Source of the DNA: Bacteroidota bacterium
GTDB lineage: Bacteria > Bacteroidota > Ignavibacteria > Ignavibacteriales > SURF-24
Reading direction: 5' to 3'
DNA length: 38,050 bases
Assembly (NCBI GenBank): GCA_030706145.1
Contig: JAUZPB010000032.1
Location: forward strand, 1 to 38,050
A program made the translations under genes and the position numbers. Shown one piece after another: positions 1,503 to 14,176 of the stretch. Each line of letters opens with the position of its first letter. The first letter of the stretch is position 1. Under the pieces are notes generated by a model. It saw only the letters and a program-made list of their open reading frames with translations, did not search any database and was not told the DNA's origin.

Positions 1503-3971
1503 ATGACCAAATATAAGTTACATATAAAAATACTGATTGTTCTTATTTCGCTTTTGGCAATATTTATATTCCGCGATTCCAGCCTTTTTTTTGACCAGAA
1601 ATGCAGCAGATTTCTTTATAAGCTAAATCCTCCTGAAAACCCGGATACAAATATCGTAATAATTCATATAGATAAAACAGATATTGACAACCTTGGCCCA
1701 TGGCCCTTAAAACGCAGCTATTATGCTCTCCTTATTAAAGATCTTACAGAACTGAATGTAAAGTCTATAGGTATAGAGATCTTTCTATCTGATAGGCTGC
1801 CTAGCCAGTCTATATATAATGACCTTCTAAATAATGAGATAAGAAGATCTGGCCGTGTCGTGGTCTCCTCTGTTGTTGAGTCTTATAGTAATTTACCTAA
1901 TTCAGGCACTCTTATTCTCCCTCAGCCAAAACAGTCAATTGCTGAACTTTCTACAGGACATCTGGATTATATTGAGAATGCAGGGATTTTTGTGCCTCTT
2001 AGCTATCACAAAAACTCTATCAGCGAGGATGCATTTTCATTGGCTTTGGCAAAAAAATCTTATGCAAAATCTATTTCATTACCATCTGACAGCCTGATTA
2101 AACTTAACTTCTTCTCTTCCTGGAAAAAATTCAGGAACTATACTTTCCTTGAGTTCTTTAACCTTTTTGAAAACCATAAAAGTTCGCTTAATAGCTTAAA
2201 AAATAAGATAGTCCTTGTTGGACTTAGCGATACACAGGAGTCGGCAAGCGTCATACAGACTTCTTTTGATAACCAGCTCCCAGGAATCGGCCTGCATGCC
2301 TTTGCTCTGGATAACATCCTTAATAAACGCTACATAAGAACAGACTATGAGCTTATTACTTCTCTTATACTTATTGTCCTTTTGGTTTTGCTTGTAATAT
2401 TGAACCTGAATTTTAGAGCCCTGATCAGGTATCTTTCTGCCTTTGTTTTATTTTTCCTTATCAGCTATCTGTCTTTGAATATCTTTTATATTCAGCTCGA
2501 TTATTCAGTCTTTTTGATCCCATGGCTGCTTGTGGGACTCTTTGACCTGTCTTTATTTTTAATCAAAAAAAATATTGAGTTTACTTTCTTTAGATCTGAG
2601 GCTGAAAAACTAAAAATAAAACTTAAGGAAAAAGAAACAAGGCTCTCTGATCTTGAAAAGGAACTTGAACTTGCGGGCATTGGCTCTTTATCCTCTTCTT
2701 CGTCAGGTAAATTGACTGAAAAGATCTCTGCCTTAAAAAATGAAATTGAAAACTTAAAACTTCAGCAGGAAGATCAGTTCTTAAATACCGAACTGCAAAA
2801 GGAGATGACCAGCTCTGAGAACTTCTTTGGTATTATATATAAAAGCATAGCGATGCAATCTGTTGTTTCTCTTATCACAAAGGTTGCCCCCACAGATGCT
2901 ACAACGCTTATTCTAGGTGAAAGCGGTACTGGAAAGGAACTTGTTGCAAGGGCAATCCACCAGCTTAACGATAGAAGAAAACTTAACGCATTTGTGGCCG
3001 TTAACTGCGCAGCTTTGTCTGATACTCTGCTCGAAAGTGAACTCTTTGGACACGTAAAAGGAGCTTTTACCAATGCTATCGCAGATAAAATAGGTCGTTT
3101 TGAGGCAGCCGATAAGGGAACTATATTCTTGGATGAAATTGGTGAAACATCTGAAAATTTCCAGGTAAAACTCTTAAGGATCCTTCAGACAGGCGAATTT
3201 GAAAAGGTGGGCTCTTCAAAGACAATTAAAACCGACGTTAGAGTAATTGCTGCTACTAATAAGAATCTGGAAGAACTGGTTAATGAGAAGAAATTCCGAG
3301 AGGACCTTTATTACAGGCTGAATGTAATTAAAATCGAACTGCCCCCTTTAAGAGACAGAAAAGAAGATATTAACGCAATTGCTTCTTTTTTCCTTTCTTC
3401 AGACGGTCCGGATAAGTTTTCTCTTTCAAAGGCCGCTTCGGATCAGCTGAATAAATACGACTGGAGGGGTAACGTTCGTGAACTTCAGTCTGCACTTAAA
3501 CGCGCTATGATTTTTGCCGGTTCGGCCCATAGAGACTTTATTAAGCTTAGCGACCTTCCTGAAGAGATAATTAGTAAAGATAAGTCGAACCTGGAAACAA
3601 TGATATTAGAATCCTTAAGAGAAAAAAAATTCTCCCATTCTTCTATTAATGAAACGGCAAAGGAACTGGGCAGCTTAAGCAGGGCAGTAGTATCCGAAAA
3701 TTTCAGGGGCATTGCATTTAGAACTTACTGCAGCTTTAACTTCGACCTCGAAAAGACTATACTCGAACTGTCTCAGTCTGACGACCTTAAGGTCCAGGAC
3801 AAAGTTAGAACAAAGGTCAAAACCTTTCTCTGTAATATTGAAGATGATGTAAATAAGCTAAAACCATCTGACTTTCAGAGTGTAAAGGGGAAACTGAATT
3901 CTAAGTATAAAAACCTCCCTCAGAAATATCATTCTTATCTTGATCAGATTATTATCCATTTGTTAAAGTAA
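1503..3971 (+). CDS. Membrane-bound CHASE2 sensor / sigma-54-dependent transcriptional activator
   Basis: 822 residues. A TM helix (about 8-24) is followed by a CHASE2-type extracytoplasmic sensor (about 25-275), a cluster of three TM helices (about 283-355) and a coiled coil (about 365-430). The sigma-54 AAA+ domain (about 445-680) shows Walker A GESGTGKE at 472-479, Walker B FLDEIGE with D544-E545, sensor-I-like RVIAATNK and WRGNVREL. The sigma-54-contacting loop reads GAFTNA (520-525) instead of GAFTGA. The C-terminal 130 residues are not a classical Fis helix-turn-helix, but the stretch around 705-735 (INETAKELG ... SRAVVSENFRG) looks like a helix-turn-helix and probably binds DNA. Known activators of this class hydrolyse ATP to open sigma-54 polymerase. 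The adjoining operon for envelope proteins is the likely target (inference). No clear Shine-Dalgarno precedes the ATG. Confidence 0.9.
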   Translation: MTKYKLHIKILIVLISLLAIFIFRDSSLFFDQKCSRFLYKLNPPENPDTNIVIIHIDKTDIDNLGPWPLKRSYYALLIKDLTELNVKSIGIEIFLSDRLPSQSIYNDLLNNEIRRSGRVVVSSVVESYSNLPNSGTLILPQPKQSIAELSTGHLDYIENAGIFVPLSYHKNSISEDAFSLALAKKSYAKSISLPSDSLIKLNFFSSWKKFRNYTFLEFFNLFENHKSSLNSLKNKIVLVGLSDTQESASVIQTSFDNQLPGIGLHAFALDNILNKRYIRTDYELITSLILIVLLVLLVILNLNFRALIRYLSAFVLFFLISYLSLNIFYIQLDYSVFLIPWLLVGLFDLSLFLIKKNIEFTFFRSEAEKLKIKLKEKETRLSDLEKELELAGIGSLSSSSSGKLTEKISALKNEIENLKLQQEDQFLNTELQKEMTSSENFFGIIYKSIAMQSVVSLITKVAPTDATTLILGESGTGKELVARAIHQLNDRRKLNAFVAVNCAALSDTLLESELFGHVKGAFTNAIADKIGRFEAADKGTIFLDEIGETSENFQVKLLRILQTGEFEKVGSSKTIKTDVRVIAATNKNLEELVNEKKFREDLYYRLNVIKIELPPLRDRKEDINAIASFFLSSDGPDKFSLSKAASDQLNKYDWRGNVRELQSALKRAMIFAGSAHRDFIKLSDLPEEIISKDKSNLETMILESLREKKFSHSSINETAKELGSLSRAVVSENFRGIAFRTYCSFNFDLEKTILELSQSDDLKVQDKVRTKVKTFLCNIEDDVNKLKPSDFQSVKGKLNSKYKNLPQKYHSYLDQIIIHLLK

Positions 3972-4101: not shown

Positions 4102-4117
4102 TGGCACGCCTTATGAC
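4102..4117 (+). promoter_or_regulatory. Sigma-54-like promoter of the lipoprotein/FecR operon
   Basis: The sequence TGGCACG at 4102-4108 is a perfect -24 element. Four bases later the -12 position reads ATGAC (4113-4117) where TTGCW is expected; the G is at the right spacing but the following invariant C is A. Transcription would start near 4126, leaving about 50 nt before the lipoprotein start at 4179. The position directly downstream of a sigma-54 activator gene and of the paired direct repeats supports the call; the imperfect -12 box weakens it. A TATATAAG tract just downstream could instead serve a vegetative promoter. Confidence 0.5.
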
Positions 4118-4178
4118 TATATAAGAGAAAGAAATTCTTAATAGTTTTAACTTTAACACAAAATAGGGAGTGCACAAT

Positions 4179-5159
4179 ATGAAACCGAACAACCTTCGAT
4201 TAGTGAACTGGATGGCTTTTTTTGTATTATTGGTATCTTTTGTTTGGATGACAGGATGCTCTAAAGATAATAGCGTAGTTGATCCACAGGGTAGTATAGA
4301 CCAGTCGACTAAAGCTGCTATGGAGAAGGTAGCTGTCAGCGATGAGACGGTCGCTTCTTTTGAACCAAACTATAATGAGGAAGATGTTACTGGATTTGTT
4401 CTTGGCAAGGTAGCTACTCAGATCTACCCTGTAAAAGTTTGGCAGAAAATGACCAGGGTTAGCAGAAATTTTGACGCTACTTACTCTGGCGATACAGCCT
4501 ATGGCAAGGTTACTTCTAATTTTGAGGGTACTCTCTATGTCGCTGGTTCTTATACAAAATCCCAGAGCGGAAGTCCTGTGGTTATAGATACTGTCGTATC
4601 AAAACAGTTCAGCACCTCAATTGTTCACAATGTTATTTTAGTTAAAACAGCCAGCCAGGATACTTCAAAGGAGCACTGGAAAGTCGTCGCAGTTTCATTG
4701 CCCGAAGGCGGTACACTGACAAGCAATATCCAGATACAGAAAATGACCCTTTTCCTTGCTAATGGCGATACTCTTAATATAACTTCACCTAACAACTATT
4801 ATCTCTATAAAATGACTGGAAAGAGAAGAATGATACCTTCTGTCTCCAAAGGTGCCGCCCTTAAGGTAAGAGTTGAATTGACTAGTGCTTATGCAGATAC
4901 TGACTTTGTCTCGGTTACTCACGGCGCTATCTATGACAGCTTTATGAAAGGCCACTATAGAGTAAAAACTAAATTTAATTTGATCTCTTCTACACCCGAA
5001 GGTGCATCTTACCGTAAGGTTTATGAAGCTACTATTAAGACAAATCAGTATATGGGTTATTTCCACGCTGTAGTTAATGCGATCCCAAGGGGAGTTGTTA
5101 TGGACGATAAGGCCCCGGTTGAGACTAATACCTGGGGTATACCTTATTTCGTTAAATAA
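4179..5159 (+). CDS. Putative lipoprotein of unknown function (first gene of envelope operon)
   Basis: I do not recognise this 326-residue protein. It has a lipoprotein signal peptide: a hydrophobic segment (about 11-24) ending in the lipobox MTGC, with C27 as the predicted lipidated residue and S-K-D after it. The mature part is rich in beta-prone, Thr/Ser/Val sequence (for example GKVTSNFEGTLYVAG) with no catalytic motif visible, and the C-terminus ends WGIPYFVK. The ATG at 4179 is preceded by AGGGAG with 8-nt spacing; an in-frame GTG at 4170 overlaps that ribosome site and is rejected. It is the first gene after the sigma-54-like promoter and is followed by a strong hairpin, so it may be made in excess over the later operon genes. 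Likely location is the inner leaflet of the outer membrane, facing the periplasm (inference). Confidence 0.87.
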   Translation: MKPNNLRLVNWMAFFVLLVSFVWMTGCSKDNSVVDPQGSIDQSTKAAMEKVAVSDETVASFEPNYNEEDVTGFVLGKVATQIYPVKVWQKMTRVSRNFDATYSGDTAYGKVTSNFEGTLYVAGSYTKSQSGSPVVIDTVVSKQFSTSIVHNVILVKTASQDTSKEHWKVVAVSLPEGGTLTSNIQIQKMTLFLANGDTLNITSPNNYYLYKMTGKRRMIPSVSKGAALKVRVELTSAYADTDFVSVTHGAIYDSFMKGHYRVKTKFNLISSTPEGASYRKVYEATIKTNQYMGYFHAVVNAIPRGVVMDDKAPVETNTWGIPYFVK

Positions 5160-5279: not shown

Positions 5280-6200
5280 ATGAAGAAATTATCTGCCTAT
5301 ATATTAATAACTCTTATTCCTTTGCTGCTCTTTGCCTGCAGTAAACCACTGCCTACTGAATTGGTTGGCAATGAGAGCTCAGATGAGCAAAGCTCACTCG
5401 AGTTTAATACTATTTCTTCTGATGATGAATTATTATACAAGAACGGCTATGATTCTACTGGTACTGATCTTTCTGTCCCCAGTACCTCTGTTGTAATTTC
5501 CGCAAGCTCTATTAAAACTACTTATAAGTCTAAAACTGAAGTAAAAGAACTTGCTGAAGCTGCTTTCTTTGACAGGGAAATGCCTGTAAAACGCCAGGGT
5601 GGAAAACTCTTAGGCTATAGGACAAAACTTTTGGGCGTCGTTAGCTTTAATAACCTGCAGGCACGGGTTGTCCCTTTTATGGCTTCTTTTAGAGAACATG
5701 GTGCAATAAAAGATACTTTACTCGGTTCATACTTCCTGCTCTATAAAAATAATAATTCTGGCGATCCATTTAATTTTGTACACGATTCAAATATTCACTT
5801 TAGACTAAAAGGCATTATGAACAGATCCGATGAGTTTGAGATCTCTACCCCAAAGGAGATTTCTGCCGAGGTCGATGTAAGCGGATCTTTGTCTAATAAT
5901 GACCTTAGCTTTAAGATTAAATGGGATAAGGCCCTTCAGGGAAAAATCCAGATCCTTATCAGCGGACTTAGCATCTCACAGAAAAATACTGTCCCTTTTG
6001 CTAAAATATATACAGATGATAAGGGCTTGGCTAAGATACCTTCTTCATTTCTTAAGGACTTCCCTCTTGCTAATTTCGATAGGATTGTCTTTACTCTTTC
6101 TAGAAGAAAAACAACAGAGTATAAATCAGGAAGTATCATAAAAGATAACACAATTGTTGCACAAACCATACATAGCATTCAGCTCGATATTCCGAAATAG
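5280..6200 (+). CDS. Putative lipoprotein of unknown function (second gene of envelope operon)
   Basis: 306 residues, not recognised. The N-terminus MKKLSAYILITLIPLLLFAC is a clear lipoprotein signal with C20 as the lipidation site and S-K-P following. An acidic, Ser-rich linker (about 25-75) precedes a beta-rich body. Around residues 75-120 lies a Lys/Glu-rich segment (KTEVKELAEAAFFDREMPVK). No enzyme motif was seen. The ATG at 5280 lies 120 bp after the first lipoprotein and lacks a strong ribosome site. Its 3' end overlaps the signal-peptide region of the outer-membrane gene, which suggests translational coupling. It may be a partner of that barrel (inference from gene order). Confidence 0.85.
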   Translation: MKKLSAYILITLIPLLLFACSKPLPTELVGNESSDEQSSLEFNTISSDDELLYKNGYDSTGTDLSVPSTSVVISASSIKTTYKSKTEVKELAEAAFFDREMPVKRQGGKLLGYRTKLLGVVSFNNLQARVVPFMASFREHGAIKDTLLGSYFLLYKNNNSGDPFNFVHDSNIHFRLKGIMNRSDEFEISTPKEISAEVDVSGSLSNNDLSFKIKWDKALQGKIQILISGLSISQKNTVPFAKIYTDDKGLAKIPSSFLKDFPLANFDRIVFTLSRRKTTEYKSGSIIKDNTIVAQTIHSIQLDIPK

Positions 6201-8193
6201 ATTATTAATAGCCTCATTGGGTATTGTAATGCTTTTTTCGTATAGAATATTTGCACAAAACTCTCTTGACCTTACAGGTAACCTGGCGAATTCTAAGAAT
6301 TCTCAGTTTAACCTGAATGGCCTTGAAAGTAACCGCTCGGCCTTTTCTAGCATAAAGGACTGGGAGTTCTCTGTGACTTATGGTGGCGAGTTTGCCAACA
6401 GCTTTAATGGCAACCTTTATCTTCTCTCACTCTCAAAAAGATTAAACGATAATTATTTCTATATCAGGTATTCTCCTGGGTACTTTAAAGATTTTACTTT
6501 TAATACTGGGACTAATATTAATTTTGGTGATACACTTGCTGTAGAGCTTAAATCTCTTTTTCACTATGAGGAGCTCTTTGGCTTTGGTTATTCACGCCCG
6601 CTTTCAAAAACTTTAAGCGCAGGCTTTTCCTTTAGATATTTTAAGCAGCAGTTCTCTAACGACCAGGCAAGCCTTAAATATAATAATAATTCTACCTCTA
6701 TCGTTGTTAATACGAAAAGCGAATCTGATAACTTCTGGATTGGTGATTTGGGCCTGAATTATTACCCGGCTTCTTTTCTTAACCTTAGCTTTTCTACAAT
6801 TAACCTCATAAAAGCTGAAGCATCAGTCGTCTCTGAGGAGAACTTACCCTACAAGATGAAAATGGATAGATCACTCCTCCTGGGACTAAATTACCAGATG
6901 ACAAATAACTTCAATGCAAAGCTGTACTATGAATTTAACAGGTCCTTTCAGGCTTCTGTTAATACGGGATTTGATCTTTTGGGTGGAAACTTAAACCTTT
7001 CTCTAGGCGCCTTTCACGATATTGATCAGGCGCCATATATTGCTGGAATTGTTCCAGGAATTAATTATTCAACAGGGCTTTTTTCTGTATCACTGACCGG
7101 AGTAAAATATTTTAGCGACCGGACCAATCAGGTGCACCCCATTACGGAATTTCGTGAAAAGGGTTTGCACAATATTCTAAACAATAGCTATAGTTTCGAT
7201 AAAGCTGTCCTTAGCGTTAATTTTGCTCTTAATACTATAGATGAAAAAATATTAAAGTTTGTAGATGTAAATGTAATTCAGGATATTTTTCCTACTCTTG
7301 CCGATAAATACCTGGAGAGCCCTTTTGCTGTAGCTAAAGTGATCAACCTTTCTGATAAAACTGTTTCTGTAAAACCCTACTGCCGTATTTCCGGAATAAA
7401 TAACGATAAGGTGCAGTCACCATCTTTTACAATTGCACCAAAAGATACGGCTGAAATACCTTTTTACACCATAATCGATCAGTCTGCCAGGATAAACAGG
7501 AAAATGGGCATTTCTCAGGCTGATTTTTATGTCTCATCTGGAAACGACAGCCAGATGGACGATGAGTTCCATAAACCTGTCCTTGTAAACGACGTTAATA
7601 GCTGGGATGGTAAGGTATCTGACCTTAAGTATTTTGTCTGGCACGACCTTGATAGATCTCTTGTTACTGCAAAAAATATAATTCAGCTCCATAAACAGCA
7701 GCTGGATTCTTTACCTTCTGCTTTATCTAAGTTCTATATAACTTCGATCCTCTTTGAAAAATATGTAAGCCAGATGGTTTATGTCAGCGATCCAAGAGCT
7801 TCTGTAAACAGGGTCCAGTTTCCATCTGAAACTTTAAGCCTGAAAGGCGGTGCCTGCGATGACTTGAGCGTTGGCTTCTCAAGTCTTCTTGAAAGCGTTG
7901 GCATACAAACTGCCTTTGTTGATTTTAAGTCTGACTCTAGCATTAGTCATGTTAATTTGCTAGTTAATACGGAACTGTCTCCTGATCAGGCCAGGCTTAT
8001 TACTGGCAATGATAAAAAATATGTGCTGAGAAAAGATCAGTCAGGCAATGATGAGGTTTGGATCCCGCTCGAAATGACTTCTCTTACTGATTTTAATAAG
8101 GCCTGGGAAACTGCAGCTGAAAAATTTAATAGCGAGGCTATCGAAAAAATGGGACTGGCTAAGGGAACAGTTGAGATTGTAGATTTGTATTAG
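6154..8193 (+). CDS. Outer-membrane beta-barrel protein with C-terminal transglutaminase-like domain
   Basis: About 679 residues. The N-terminus (RNRLLIASLGIVMLFSYRIFAQ) is a signal peptide. Residues about 45-355 alternate polar and hydrophobic residues with aromatic strand ends (FAVTYGG-like strands, NDNYFYIRYSPGYF, LLLGLNYQM, FNAKLYYEF), typical of a PorV/TraF-like outer-membrane barrel. An Ig-like segment follows (about 365-460). The C-terminal part carries a transglutaminase/papain-like signature: LKGGACDDLSVGFSSLLESVGI with Cys568, then His599 in SHVNLLVN, and WIPLEMT where the third triad residue (usually Asp) would be Glu. The frame opens with TTG at 6154, overlapping the previous gene by 47 bp. 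The first ATG (6229) would cut off most of the signal peptide, so a TTG start at 6154 or 6157 is favoured but uncertain. The exact substrate is unknown. Confidence 0.82.
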   Translation: MLHKPYIAFSSIFRNRLLIASLGIVMLFSYRIFAQNSLDLTGNLANSKNSQFNLNGLESNRSAFSSIKDWEFSVTYGGEFANSFNGNLYLLSLSKRLNDNYFYIRYSPGYFKDFTFNTGTNINFGDTLAVELKSLFHYEELFGFGYSRPLSKTLSAGFSFRYFKQQFSNDQASLKYNNNSTSIVVNTKSESDNFWIGDLGLNYYPASFLNLSFSTINLIKAEASVVSEENLPYKMKMDRSLLLGLNYQMTNNFNAKLYYEFNRSFQASVNTGFDLLGGNLNLSLGAFHDIDQAPYIAGIVPGINYSTGLFSVSLTGVKYFSDRTNQVHPITEFREKGLHNILNNSYSFDKAVLSVNFALNTIDEKILKFVDVNVIQDIFPTLADKYLESPFAVAKVINLSDKTVSVKPYCRISGINNDKVQSPSFTIAPKDTAEIPFYTIIDQSARINRKMGISQADFYVSSGNDSQMDDEFHKPVLVNDVNSWDGKVSDLKYFVWHDLDRSLVTAKNIIQLHKQQLDSLPSALSKFYITSILFEKYVSQMVYVSDPRASVNRVQFPSETLSLKGGACDDLSVGFSSLLESVGIQTAFVDFKSDSSISHVNLLVNTELSPDQARLITGNDKKYVLRKDQSGNDEVWIPLEMTSLTDFNKAWETAAEKFNSEAIEKMGLAKGTVEIVDLY

Positions 8194-8241: not shown

Positions 8242-8922
8242 ATGAATAAGATAATTGTACTTTTTTTTATAATGTCTTTTGCCATTGTGGCTCAGACCTT
8301 TAAGGTTGAAAAGGTTAGCGGAAAGGTCCTGGCCTTGAGGGGAACAAGCGAGAATTGGACCGATATTAAACAGGGCGATAAACTTTCGGGAAGTGACCTT
8401 CTGGTTACAGGTGAGAACTCATATATACAGCTTAGTAAAGATGCAAGCAGCTTTTTGCTAAAGAGTAATTCGGCCCTGGGACTTAATAGTATTAAAAAGC
8501 TCTCTGTTGATGAGCTTCTGCTTGCCCTTGCTTCTGAGGAAATTAAAAATGTCCCGAAGAATAAATCGGATTCAAAGACAAAAACTACGGCTGTCTATGG
8601 ATCGAAAATTGACAATAAACTTGCTGCTACTATACCTGCAAACGATCTGGGGCTGAAGAAGATCAACGGTGCAAAACAACTAGCTGAAAGCGGCTTTAAG
8701 GAATCTTCTGTCCTTGTGGCAAAAGAAACCTTTAGAAAGTATCCTGATATGCAGAAAAGGATCTCTGACAGGATCTATTTTGCAGATATCCTGGAAAGGC
8801 TTGGCGTCTATGATGAGGCTTATTCTGAGTTCTTAAAAATTAATGGACTTGCTATGAAGGATTCTGAAAGATCTATAGTTAAAGCTAAGCTGGAGTCACT
8901 GTCTAAAAAAATCTCAAAATAA
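8242..8922 (+). CDS. FecR-like periplasmic protein with C-terminal TPR-like helices
   Basis: 226 residues. A signal peptide (1-17, ending AIVAQ) is followed by a FecR-like domain (about 18-90): VEKVSGKVLALRG, DIKQGDKLSGSDLLVTGENSYIQL. FecR domains bind signals or peptides in the periplasm and commonly travel with CHASE2 sensors (established association). After a Lys/Ser-rich linker, residues about 145-226 form TPR-like helices (AKQLAESGFKESSVLVAKETF, YFADILERLGVYDEAYSEFLK). The ATG is preceded by AAGGAA at 5-nt spacing. It is the last gene of the envelope operon; 48 bp separate it from the barrel gene. It may relay the state of the barrel or lipoproteins to the CHASE2 sensor (inference). Confidence 0.82.
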   Translation: MNKIIVLFFIMSFAIVAQTFKVEKVSGKVLALRGTSENWTDIKQGDKLSGSDLLVTGENSYIQLSKDASSFLLKSNSALGLNSIKKLSVDELLLALASEEIKNVPKNKSDSKTKTTAVYGSKIDNKLAATIPANDLGLKKINGAKQLAESGFKESSVLVAKETFRKYPDMQKRISDRIYFADILERLGVYDEAYSEFLKINGLAMKDSERSIVKAKLESLSKKISK

Positions 8923-11310: not shown

Positions 11311-11437
11311 AAAGCCGTGTACAACTTCCTGGTTTTGTGCTGGAAATGAATAAAATTTCTAGTCAGATAGAATGTCTGATTTATTTGGATCTTATAACGG
11401 GATCTCGATACGTATGACTCTGTTAGGAGGTGTAACG

Positions 11438-14176
11438 ATGAAAAGAATTCTTTTGCTTATATCTTTTTCTTACTCTTTGCTTTTTTGCCAGTCAAAACAG
11501 TGGATAGACTACTTTGGAATATCAACTGTCACAAGTCTCGCCGTAGAAGGACAATTCCTTTGGGCAGGAAATGCTACAAACCTTACAAGACTTAACACAT
11601 TAACAGGTAAAATGGATTTCTATGACTTCTTGAACTCCAGCCTGCCTAAAAATAGTATTCTTTCAATTTCTGTCGATAAAAATGGGAATAAGTGGATTGG
11701 AACTGAAGGCGGTGGACTTGCAAAATATGATAATTCAAATTGGACCATTTACAATAAGTCTAATTCCACTCTTCCAAATGATACTATTCATTCAATTGCT
11801 TCTGACCAAATGGGTAATATATGGATTGGTACAAATAAAGGATTAGCTAAATTTGATGGGCAGAAATGGGCAGTTTATAACAGCTCTAATTCTGCTTTGC
11901 CTGATGATCGTTTTAATGCAATAGCTATCGACCAGAAGGGTAATAAATGGATTGGTACTAATTCTAATGGGTTAGTAAAATTTAATGATACAACCTGGAC
12001 GTCATATAACAGATCTAATTCCGGTATACCTGATAATATGGTCTATGCCGTGGCTGTTGACTTAAAAGGGAATATCTGGGTCGGGACTTATGTCGTTTTC
12101 CACGTAAAAGGAGGACTTTCGAAATTTGATGGTAAAATCTGGACAGTCTATAATGACTCTAACTCTTATCTGCCCAACGAACCCACAACAGCAATTGCAG
12201 TTGATAGTAATGAAATTTTGTGGACAGGAAGCCGTGGTTTAATAAAATATAACGATACAGCATGGACTGTCTATAATACGCATAATTCCGGTATTCCAAC
12301 TGACCTGATTGCTTCAATTGCAATAGATAACAAGGGAAATAAATGGTTCGGCTCTTCAATTGGACTTGTGAAATTTGACGGCAAAGACTGGACAATATTT
12401 AATACTGCAAATTCTGAACTGCCTGATAACATAATTACTGCAATTGCAATTGACAAGGATAATACTAAATGGTTTGGAATCTGGTTCCTGGGCGGAGTAG
12501 CTGCATTCGATAACCAAAAATGGACATACTTTGATCCATCGCACTTCAGCTATCCTGAATTCTATCAATACATAAGTGCAATTGCAGTAGATAAGAAAAA
12601 TGTTAAATGGATTGCTACATTAGGCGGCGGACTAATTAAATATGATGGCAAAACATGGACACAATATAACACTTCTAATTCTGAACTGCCGGATGATTAC
12701 GTAAAAGCAATTGTTGTCGACAAACTGGATAATAAATGGATCGGCACGGGCAGTGGACTTGTAAAATATGATGATAAAGTTTGGACAATCTATAATACAT
12801 CCAACTCTGGTATACCTGGCAATTATATTGCTGCAATTGCACTAGACCATGAGGGCAATAAATGGATAGCTTGTAACGGACTTACAAAGTATGATGATAG
12901 AACATGGACATTGTATAATACTTCTAATTCCGGCTTACCTGAAAATGATGTTACAGCAATTGCAATCGATCAGAAAGATAATAAATGGATAGGAACTTAC
13001 TCAAAAGGTCTGGCAAAATTCGATAACAAAAACTGGATAACCTATGATTCTTCCAACTCGCCCTTAAGCGGTAACTATATAAGCTCAATTGCTATTGACT
13101 CCCTTGGTAATAAATGGATTGGATTACATAACTATTATGAAAGCCATGGCGGACTTGCAAAACTAGATAGCACGAATTGGACAATTTTTAATGCTTCTAA
13201 TTCAGGCCTGCCACATGATGACATTTATTCAGTCATAGTTGATCAAAAAGGAAACAAATGGATTGGAACCTATAAAGGCCTGGCAGTTTACAGGGAAGAT
13301 GGAGTATTACTAGATAATTTGCCAAATATTCCCATACTCATCTCTGTTAAAAATAATTCGAAGGACCAGCCCTTAAGTCTTACACTGCAATGGGAAAAAG
13401 CAGCTATGGCAGATTCATATCACCTCCAGCTAGCAAATGATAGCCTCTTCAAGATAATTGTTCTGAATGATTCTCTCCTAACCTCTGGTTCAAGGAGCAT
13501 TGCAAATCTTCTTGAGGGTAGGATCTACTACTGGAGACTAAAAGCTAAAAATAACTTGGGAGAAAGTAATTGGTCCAATCCCTGGAATTTTACTACAGTA
13601 TTATATTCCCCTGATAGCTTAAAGGTTAAGGTAATTAGTGCAAAAGCGTTCCAGCTTTCATGGACAGACAGATCAGGTGAAGAAATTGGCTTTATTGTAG
13701 AAAGAAGACAACAGTCCGTCTTTACTACTTTAGATACCACACATGCTAATATTACAAGCTACATCGACTCAACTATTGAAGGTCAGACATTTTATGAATA
13801 TAGAGTCAAAGCATATAACAAATATGCCGTTTCATCCTATAGCAATACCGCGTCAATTGCAGCAACTGGAGTAAATTACTCTGGAACAATTCCAACTGAG
13901 TATTCTCTTTCCCAGAATTACCCGAATCCATTTAACCCTGCAACTTTGATCAGATATGGATTACCGAAAGAAAGCTATGTTAGAATTGTAGTATACAATT
14001 CCTTAGGACAGATGGTCCGGGAATTAATACTAGCTAATCAAAATGCGGGATTTCATGAAACTATTTTTAATGCAGGCAATTTTGCTTCAGGTGTTTACTT
14101 CTACCTTCTTGAGGCAAAAGCAACCGATGGATCAAAAGATTACAGGGAAATAAGAAAGATGATGTTAGTGAAGTAA
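11438..14176 (+). CDS. Type IX-secreted two-propeller protein with two FnIII-like domains
   Basis: 912 residues. A signal peptide (1-17) is followed by about 14 repeats of 40-47 residues (about 20-625) with the reg_prop pattern W-T-x-(Y/F)-N-x-x-N-S-x-(L/I)-P ... (I/V)A(I/V)D-x-x-G-N-(K/I)-W-(I/V)-G. That number fits two seven-bladed beta-propellers. Two fibronectin-III-like domains follow (about 628-720 and 722-808). The C-terminus is a type IX sorting domain (about 818-912) with LSQNYPNPFNPAT and FASGVYFYLLEAK. AGGAGG at 11425-11430 sits 7 nt before the ATG at 11438; the longer reading frame from 11372 is rejected. The protein should be exported and anchored or released at the cell surface. 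In known Bacteroidota sensors such propellers form the periplasmic half of hybrid kinases binding glycans; here no kinase is attached. It is first of three tandem paralogues. Confidence 0.92.
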   Translation: MKRILLLISFSYSLLFCQSKQWIDYFGISTVTSLAVEGQFLWAGNATNLTRLNTLTGKMDFYDFLNSSLPKNSILSISVDKNGNKWIGTEGGGLAKYDNSNWTIYNKSNSTLPNDTIHSIASDQMGNIWIGTNKGLAKFDGQKWAVYNSSNSALPDDRFNAIAIDQKGNKWIGTNSNGLVKFNDTTWTSYNRSNSGIPDNMVYAVAVDLKGNIWVGTYVVFHVKGGLSKFDGKIWTVYNDSNSYLPNEPTTAIAVDSNEILWTGSRGLIKYNDTAWTVYNTHNSGIPTDLIASIAIDNKGNKWFGSSIGLVKFDGKDWTIFNTANSELPDNIITAIAIDKDNTKWFGIWFLGGVAAFDNQKWTYFDPSHFSYPEFYQYISAIAVDKKNVKWIATLGGGLIKYDGKTWTQYNTSNSELPDDYVKAIVVDKLDNKWIGTGSGLVKYDDKVWTIYNTSNSGIPGNYIAAIALDHEGNKWIACNGLTKYDDRTWTLYNTSNSGLPENDVTAIAIDQKDNKWIGTYSKGLAKFDNKNWITYDSSNSPLSGNYISSIAIDSLGNKWIGLHNYYESHGGLAKLDSTNWTIFNASNSGLPHDDIYSVIVDQKGNKWIGTYKGLAVYREDGVLLDNLPNIPILISVKNNSKDQPLSLTLQWEKAAMADSYHLQLANDSLFKIIVLNDSLLTSGSRSIANLLEGRIYYWRLKAKNNLGESNWSNPWNFTTVLYSPDSLKVKVISAKAFQLSWTDRSGEEIGFIVERRQQSVFTTLDTTHANITSYIDSTIEGQTFYEYRVKAYNKYAVSSYSNTASIAATGVNYSGTIPTEYSLSQNYPNPFNPATLIRYGLPKESYVRIVVYNSLGQMVRELILANQNAGFHETIFNAGNFASGVYFYLLEAKATDGSKDYREIRKMMLVK

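Follow-up and report, generated by a model that had tools for sequence, protein, structure and literature searches.

In FecA-FecR-FecI transenvelope signaling, an outer-membrane barrel works with a periplasmic FecR-type protein toward a transcriptional output. Outer-membrane barrels have also been connected with CHASE2 proteins, as the barrel NsrA of Sinorhizobium is required for signaling to the CHASE2 cyclases CyaK and CyaD1/D2 (PMC7529298, PMC13001267). In Burkholderia, biofilm regulation involves a FecR protein with a CHASE2 kinase, and what CHASE2 domains sense has been described as unknown (PMC5192318). Among periplasmic proteases, those of the LapG/DvhG type recognize retention domains, dock a targeting helix, and cleave at a [TAP]AAG site directly behind such a domain (PMC13090378). 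The window described here, which is the whole stretch of 38,050 nucleotides that was analyzed, contains an operon with likenesses to all of these systems. In the open-access literature searched, outside which most subscription journals lie, we found no described equivalent of a barrel-peptidase/FecR/CHASE2 system and no paper that names CHASE2, FecR, and transglutaminase together. The genes and the promoter-like element concerned are as follows.

1503..3971, + strand: CHASE2 and sigma54-activator AAA+ protein of 822 aa, a predicted inner-membrane sensor and transcriptional activator
4102..4117, + strand: sigma54-type promoter-like element TGGCACGCCTTATGAC, with a canonical -24 half and a degenerate -12 half
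4170..5159, + strand: LP1 lipoprotein, likely start ATG 4179, invariant lipobox Cys30
5280..6200, + strand: LP2 lipoprotein, invariant lipobox Cys20, 3' end overlapping the barrel gene
6154..8193, + strand: barrel-peptidase gene, TTG start, 679 aa, stop codon 8191-8193
8242..8922, + strand: FecR-like/LapA-retention-module-like periplasmic protein with a helical, TPR-like C-terminus

As in FecA-FecR-FecI, an outer-membrane barrel and a periplasmic FecR-type protein are found together with a transcriptional output; the differences are that the FecR-like protein here appears to be secreted, that a CHASE2-sigma54 activator provides the output, and that an enzyme domain is attached to the barrel. 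The Burkholderia BiofilmReg operon (a FecR-LysM protein and a CHASE2 histidine kinase) likewise pairs a FecR protein with a CHASE2 sensor but has neither barrel nor peptidase, and its output is a two-component regulator. The Sinorhizobium system is similar in that an outer-membrane barrel feeds a CHASE2 inner-membrane protein, but in NsrA the barrel is the C-terminal part, the papers mention no protease domain (PMC7529298, PMC13001267), and the output is cAMP rather than the sigma54 transcription proposed here.

We consider it about an even chance that the outer-membrane barrel holds an active periplasmic cysteine peptidase that is coupled to the FecR-like protein and the CHASE2-sigma54 activator in a relay with feedback on the operon. 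The barrel and the Ig-like segment, the LapG-like fold and its invariant Cys-His-Glu residues, the operon, its co-inheritance, and the sigma54-type element were computed from sequence and by structure prediction, and the relay would join them in the following manner. The barrel or the Ig-like part would sense or dock something at the outer membrane, and the tethered peptidase, near the inner face of this membrane, would act on the FecR-like protein or on another envelope protein. The FecR-like protein would then convey this peptidase-dependent state to the periplasmic domain of the CHASE2 protein, which as an activator would adjust sigma54-dependent transcription of the operon, giving a feedback loop. 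By analogy, the NsrA precedent of a barrel that signals to CHASE2 cyclases supports such a relay.

The barrel-peptidase gene had been called at 6154-8193 in an earlier sequence-only reading, which pointed to the motifs GGACDDLS and SHVNLLV; the open reading frame is as called, and the motifs fall at residues 565 to 572 and 598 to 604. The gene is present in a single copy in its own genome. A search for the same fusion elsewhere, as that reading had proposed, yielded full-length relatives with 32 to 55% identity to the window protein in 30 of 59 genomes searched from the same order, and hence this is not a chance open reading frame. The family occurs in Ignavibacteriales (Ignavibacteriaceae, Melioribacteraceae, and related MAGs), and an alignment-based scan of genome contigs recovered 77 loci. 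The C-terminal domain is the best-conserved part of the protein, and Gln35, invariant in the alignment, is likely the first residue of the mature form. A phmmer comparison of the full-length protein with the PDB was uninformative, returning just porins and antibodies (E of at least 0.2), and a weak DUF4755 match at residues 44 to 82, seen in only 1 of 30 members, was dismissed as chance. The parts of the protein and the residues discussed below are encoded as follows.

6154..6255, + strand: putative signal peptide, residues 1 to 34, read from the sequence and the relatives' alignment
6361..7275, + strand: outer-membrane beta-barrel, residues 70 to 374, about 16 strands, FadL/TodX/PorV-like (AlphaFold, Foldseek)
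7276..7605, + strand: Ig-like beta-sandwich linker, residues 375 to 484 (AlphaFold strands 392 to 478)
7606..8190, + strand: transglutaminase/LapG-like domain, residues 485 to 679 (AlphaFold model; LapG profile and Foldseek matches)
7855..7857, + strand: predicted catalytic Cys568 codon, N-terminus of the core helix, invariant in 107/107
7948..7950, + strand: predicted catalytic His599 codon, start of the next strand, invariant in 108/108
8071..8073, + strand: Glu640 codon, third triad residue, right after strand 633-639, invariant in 106/106

An AlphaFold model of the full protein (30-sequence alignment; pLDDT, 82.5; pTM, 0.51) has about 16 strands at residues 70 to 374, a beta-sandwich at 375 to 480, and a helix/strand domain at 485 to 679, while the relative placing of these domains is uncertain given the pTM value. 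A barrel of about 310 residues, an Ig-like segment, and a transglutaminase-fold domain in one chain were what the sequence-only reading had predicted; the modeled barrel spans 305 residues, the other two parts follow it in the same chain, and a structure with no barrel, named in advance as counting against the prediction, did not result from the modeling. Foldseek matched the barrel to FadL (E value, 1.7e-7), to PorV, a T9SS shuttle (8gl6_F; E value, 2.4e-6), and to TodX, and these matches, together with the 16 predicted strands, indicate a FadL/PorV-like transmembrane beta-barrel fold, although the window protein matched none of the sequence families of FadL, TodX, or PorV. These top fold matches differ from the protein described here in being without the C-terminal Ig-like and peptidase domains. 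Both termini of outer-membrane barrels are normally on the periplasmic side, and the C-terminal domain should therefore be periplasmic. Lying behind a signal peptide and C-terminal to the last barrel strand, it fits the position near the inner face of the membrane that had been suggested for it.

When the C-terminal domain was modeled alone (AlphaFold, 79-sequence alignment), the pLDDT was 93.5 and the pTM was 0.90. In this model, Cys568 opens a helix (568 to 581), His599 opens a strand (599 to 605), and Glu640 follows a strand (633 to 639), which is the residue layout of the transglutaminase-like superfamily (PF01841/papain-like fold). From these secondary-structure positions and the homology to LapG, we infer that the three residues take up a canonical triad layout, and thus that Cys and His probably come together; the other result named in advance as counting against the prediction, a Cys and His far apart, is not what the layout indicates. 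The counts given above cover relatives with a reliable residue at the position, and two further sequences are truncated or gapped at Glu640. The suspected replacement of the third-triad Asp by Glu is real and fixed across the family. The variation described for the superfamily includes Glu as the third residue (PMC10318531), and so Glu640 alone is not exotic.

By sequence profile, the best match of this domain is LapG in the PDB (4u65_E; E value, 6.6e-6, with a further match at 6.7e-5), an alignment that covers the Cys half only, with His and Glu assigned by conservation and model position. LapG 4u65_E was also ranked first by Foldseek for the isolated domain (E value, 3.1e-4), with modest TM-scores of 0.38 to 0.40, and was followed by many hydrolases, such as PNGase and pseudomurein endoisopeptidase. 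A viral fold search gave two unnamed matches and, again, pseudomurein endoisopeptidase, which is support for the fold only. Further likenesses to LapG/BTLCP proteins (PDB 4u65 and 4fgo; DvhG) are the Cys at the start of a helix, the acidic residues around it, which may correspond to the LapG calcium motif, the predicted periplasmic location, and an operon neighbor resembling the LapA retention module. In contrast to LapG, the domain is covalently attached to an outer-membrane barrel, all relatives have Glu at the Asp position of the LapG/BTLCP Cys-His-Asp triad, and no LapD or LapA was recognized among the operon genes. The window copy has in addition lost an Asp next to the catalytic Cys: residue 567 (codon 7852-7854), at a position resembling the LapG calcium site, is D in 94, N in 11, E in 1, and A in 1 of 107 sequences, the Ala being that of the window's protein. 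A LapG-like calcium site may therefore be altered here, while the acidic residues D569 and D570 flanking Cys568 are kept. The barrel fold, LapG as the best profile and fold match, and the invariance of the triad in distant relatives support the relay; the Cys-half alignment, the TM-scores, and Ala567 weaken it.

Outside the order, a phylum search and named genomes showed the C-terminal peptidase module on other N-terminal parts, namely behind a smaller barrel-like part (L162 and L163), with an NHL propeller and TPR (L049, L187, and similar long proteins), and with an unassigned domain and TPR (L181 and L182), and the module is also present in KSB1 and Spirochaetaceae records. Among 23 loci without a recognized barrel match, the profile found a FecR-like gene in 15, and a CHASE2 gene was nearby in 14; as the CHASE2 partner, some distant relatives have a sigma54 activator and others an adenylate/guanylate cyclase. 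In these more distant relatives, FecR and CHASE2 partners thus mostly stay with the Ig-peptidase module while its N-terminal part changes, and this retention of the peptidase domain and, mostly, of its partners through swaps of the N-terminal part and the CHASE2 output supports the relay. Searching with the FecR profile turned up additional FecR-CHASE2 pairs at other places in these genomes. At three of these loci (L196, L198, and L199), a Peptidase_C1 protein adjoins FecR, with a caspase two genes further, and at L197 a TPR-CHAT protein adjoins CHASE2, whereas no peptidase was found near the pair of L194, whose close relative L195 was outside the scan. These peptidases were noticed post hoc at a handful of loci and are suggestive support for the relay rather than a test of it. 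In L181 and L182, succinate dehydrogenase genes follow the peptidase-CHASE2 pair on the same strand (Sdh_cyt and the flavoprotein were matched in L181).

Between the crosslinking and peptidase activities that had been suggested as alternatives, peptidase activity is the likelier, since LapG is the closest relative in both sequence and fold and since unrelated cysteine peptidases lie near four paralogous FecR-CHASE2 pairs. We think it unlikely that the domain instead acts as a transglutaminase or another amide-forming enzyme and crosslinks LP1, LP2, or surface proteins to one another or to peptidoglycan, in an envelope-building operon that the CHASE2-sigma54 activator switches on and whose barrel has no signaling role. 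Pfam Transglut_core was matched in 29 of 30 members, and while the window protein is below the gathering threshold of this transglutaminase-like family (14.0 versus 23 bits), some relatives are above it (L165, for example, at 31.7 bits). Two conserved lipoproteins are co-encoded, and the sigma54-type element before the operon would make it an output of the activator; like the Transglut_core matches, these points favor such an enzyme. Against this stand the protease LapG as the nearest relative, the hydrolases among the next fold matches, the true peptidase families at the paralogous loci, and the absence of LP1 and LP2 homologs near the module in most of the distant relatives.

The order LP1, LP2, barrel-peptidase, and FecR-like gene is kept in nearly all loci examined. 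LP2 is a conserved operon partner, and at 71 of 83 loci the barrel gene starts before the LP2 gene has ended (median gap, -4), suggesting translational coupling. LP1, for which no match was found in Pfam or the PDB, was found in each of the 30 operon genomes and also in 8 genomes without a full-length barrel protein among the 59, and it is therefore less tied to the barrel protein than are the FecR-like gene and the CHASE2-sigma54 activator. The idea that the lipoproteins are substrates gained no support from this distribution. LP1 homologs without a barrel protein (L188 to L193) are in varied contexts that give no functional clue; in L190, the surroundings include a two-component system and a DUF5666 repeat protein with a T9SS tail.

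The linkages to the FecR-like gene downstream and to the CHASE2-sigma54 activator upstream, which were absent from the sequence-only reading, are stronger than those to the lipoproteins. Wherever the sequence extends far enough, the FecR-like gene is the next one downstream of the barrel gene (79 of 79 loci), and its ortholog was found in 30/30 genomes that encode the barrel protein and in 0/29 of the others (Fisher, 2e-17); for the full-length CHASE2-sigma54 ortholog, the numbers were 30/30 and 2/29 (Fisher, 8e-15), both values being inflated by shared ancestry of the 59 genomes. The two exceptions are a partial operon on a short contig (G035) and a genome in which no operon was detected (G037). 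Only 36 of 84 barrel loci have a CHASE2 gene next to them, which weakens the relay. In one family (f3), the activator is usually encoded at a distance from the operon, and the linkage across genomes is therefore not just adjacency; the co-inheritance as a whole and the constant place of the FecR-like gene support the relay. Operon presence varies within four genera (g6, g7, g13, and g15), and the operon therefore seems to have been gained or lost repeatedly as a unit.

The FecR-like protein weakly matched NCBIfam retention_LapA (NF033682) in 23 of 29 members (best E value, 2e-6), while Pfam FecR (PF04773) was listed in none of the 29. The window member scores 23.8 bits, short of the 50-bit curated cut-off, and its match spans residues 20 to 84 only. 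Since LapG membership fails on the triad residue and FecR membership on Pfam, these parts are better said to work like LapG and FecR than to be LapG and FecR. In an otherwise variable linker, the helix residues L92, A95, and L96 and the residues T116 and Y119 are invariant. It is conceivable, if quite improbable, that the FecR-like protein is a Lap-like substrate whose retention-like domain and conserved helix DELLLALA present the conserved linker motif NTAVYG for cleavage, leading to its release or inactivation, much as LapG-type enzymes cut at their site after docking the targeting helix (PMC13090378). The retention_LapA matches and the invariant linker residues are in line with this, but in the paralog L194, which matches Pfam FecR (E value, 3.2e-12), the corresponding stretch is the classical FecR strand ASVRGT, and NTAVYG may thus belong to the structure of a FecR domain. 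Paralogs without a barrel-linked peptidase also have a helix and motif of this kind, and the proposal of NTAVYG as a peptidase-specific TAAG-type site is weakened by these equivalents. Very unlikely, finally, is a non-catalytic binding or scaffold domain that links the FecR-like protein to the outer membrane; although enzyme folds are sometimes reused as scaffolds in signaling and catalysis is here predicted only, scaffolds usually lose such residues as the Cys, His, and Glu that are invariant in every relative covering them, over several phyla.

For the output of the proposed peptidase relay, Pfam matched CHASE2 (E value, 6.5e-28) and Sigma54_activat (E value, 7e-69) in the protein encoded at 1503-3971, both above the cut-off. 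Of 30 loci, 22 have the sequence TGGCAY upstream of LP1, compared with 14 of the 421 other genes at these loci (Fisher, 1e-21), in support of the relay. Weakening it are the degenerate -12 half of the element and, in the activator, both GAFTNA in place of GAFTGA, as read from the sequence, and the result that Pfam found no helix-turn-helix or other DNA-binding domain.

The system around the barrel-peptidase is more interesting than the fusion alone. The operon offers a defined chain of parts for how outer-membrane barrels inform CHASE2 proteins, with a probable peptidase attached to the barrel, and the unit suggests an undescribed way to carry information, or to process a protein, across the cell envelope. 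The paralogous loci suggest that FecR-CHASE2 systems recurrently recruit cysteine peptidases, which, if true, would link envelope proteolysis to inner-membrane signaling. With some hesitation, we propose that outer-membrane-tethered cysteine peptidases, FecR-like periplasmic proteins, and CHASE2 inner-membrane transducers may be joined in one relay, a new transenvelope class with interchangeable outer-membrane front ends (large barrel, small barrel, or propeller-TPR), peptidases (LapG-like, papain, caspase, or CHAT), and outputs (sigma54 activator or cyclase). One protein encoded elsewhere in the window (11372-14176) combines two-component-regulator propeller repeats and fn3 domains with a C-terminal signal for type IX secretion.
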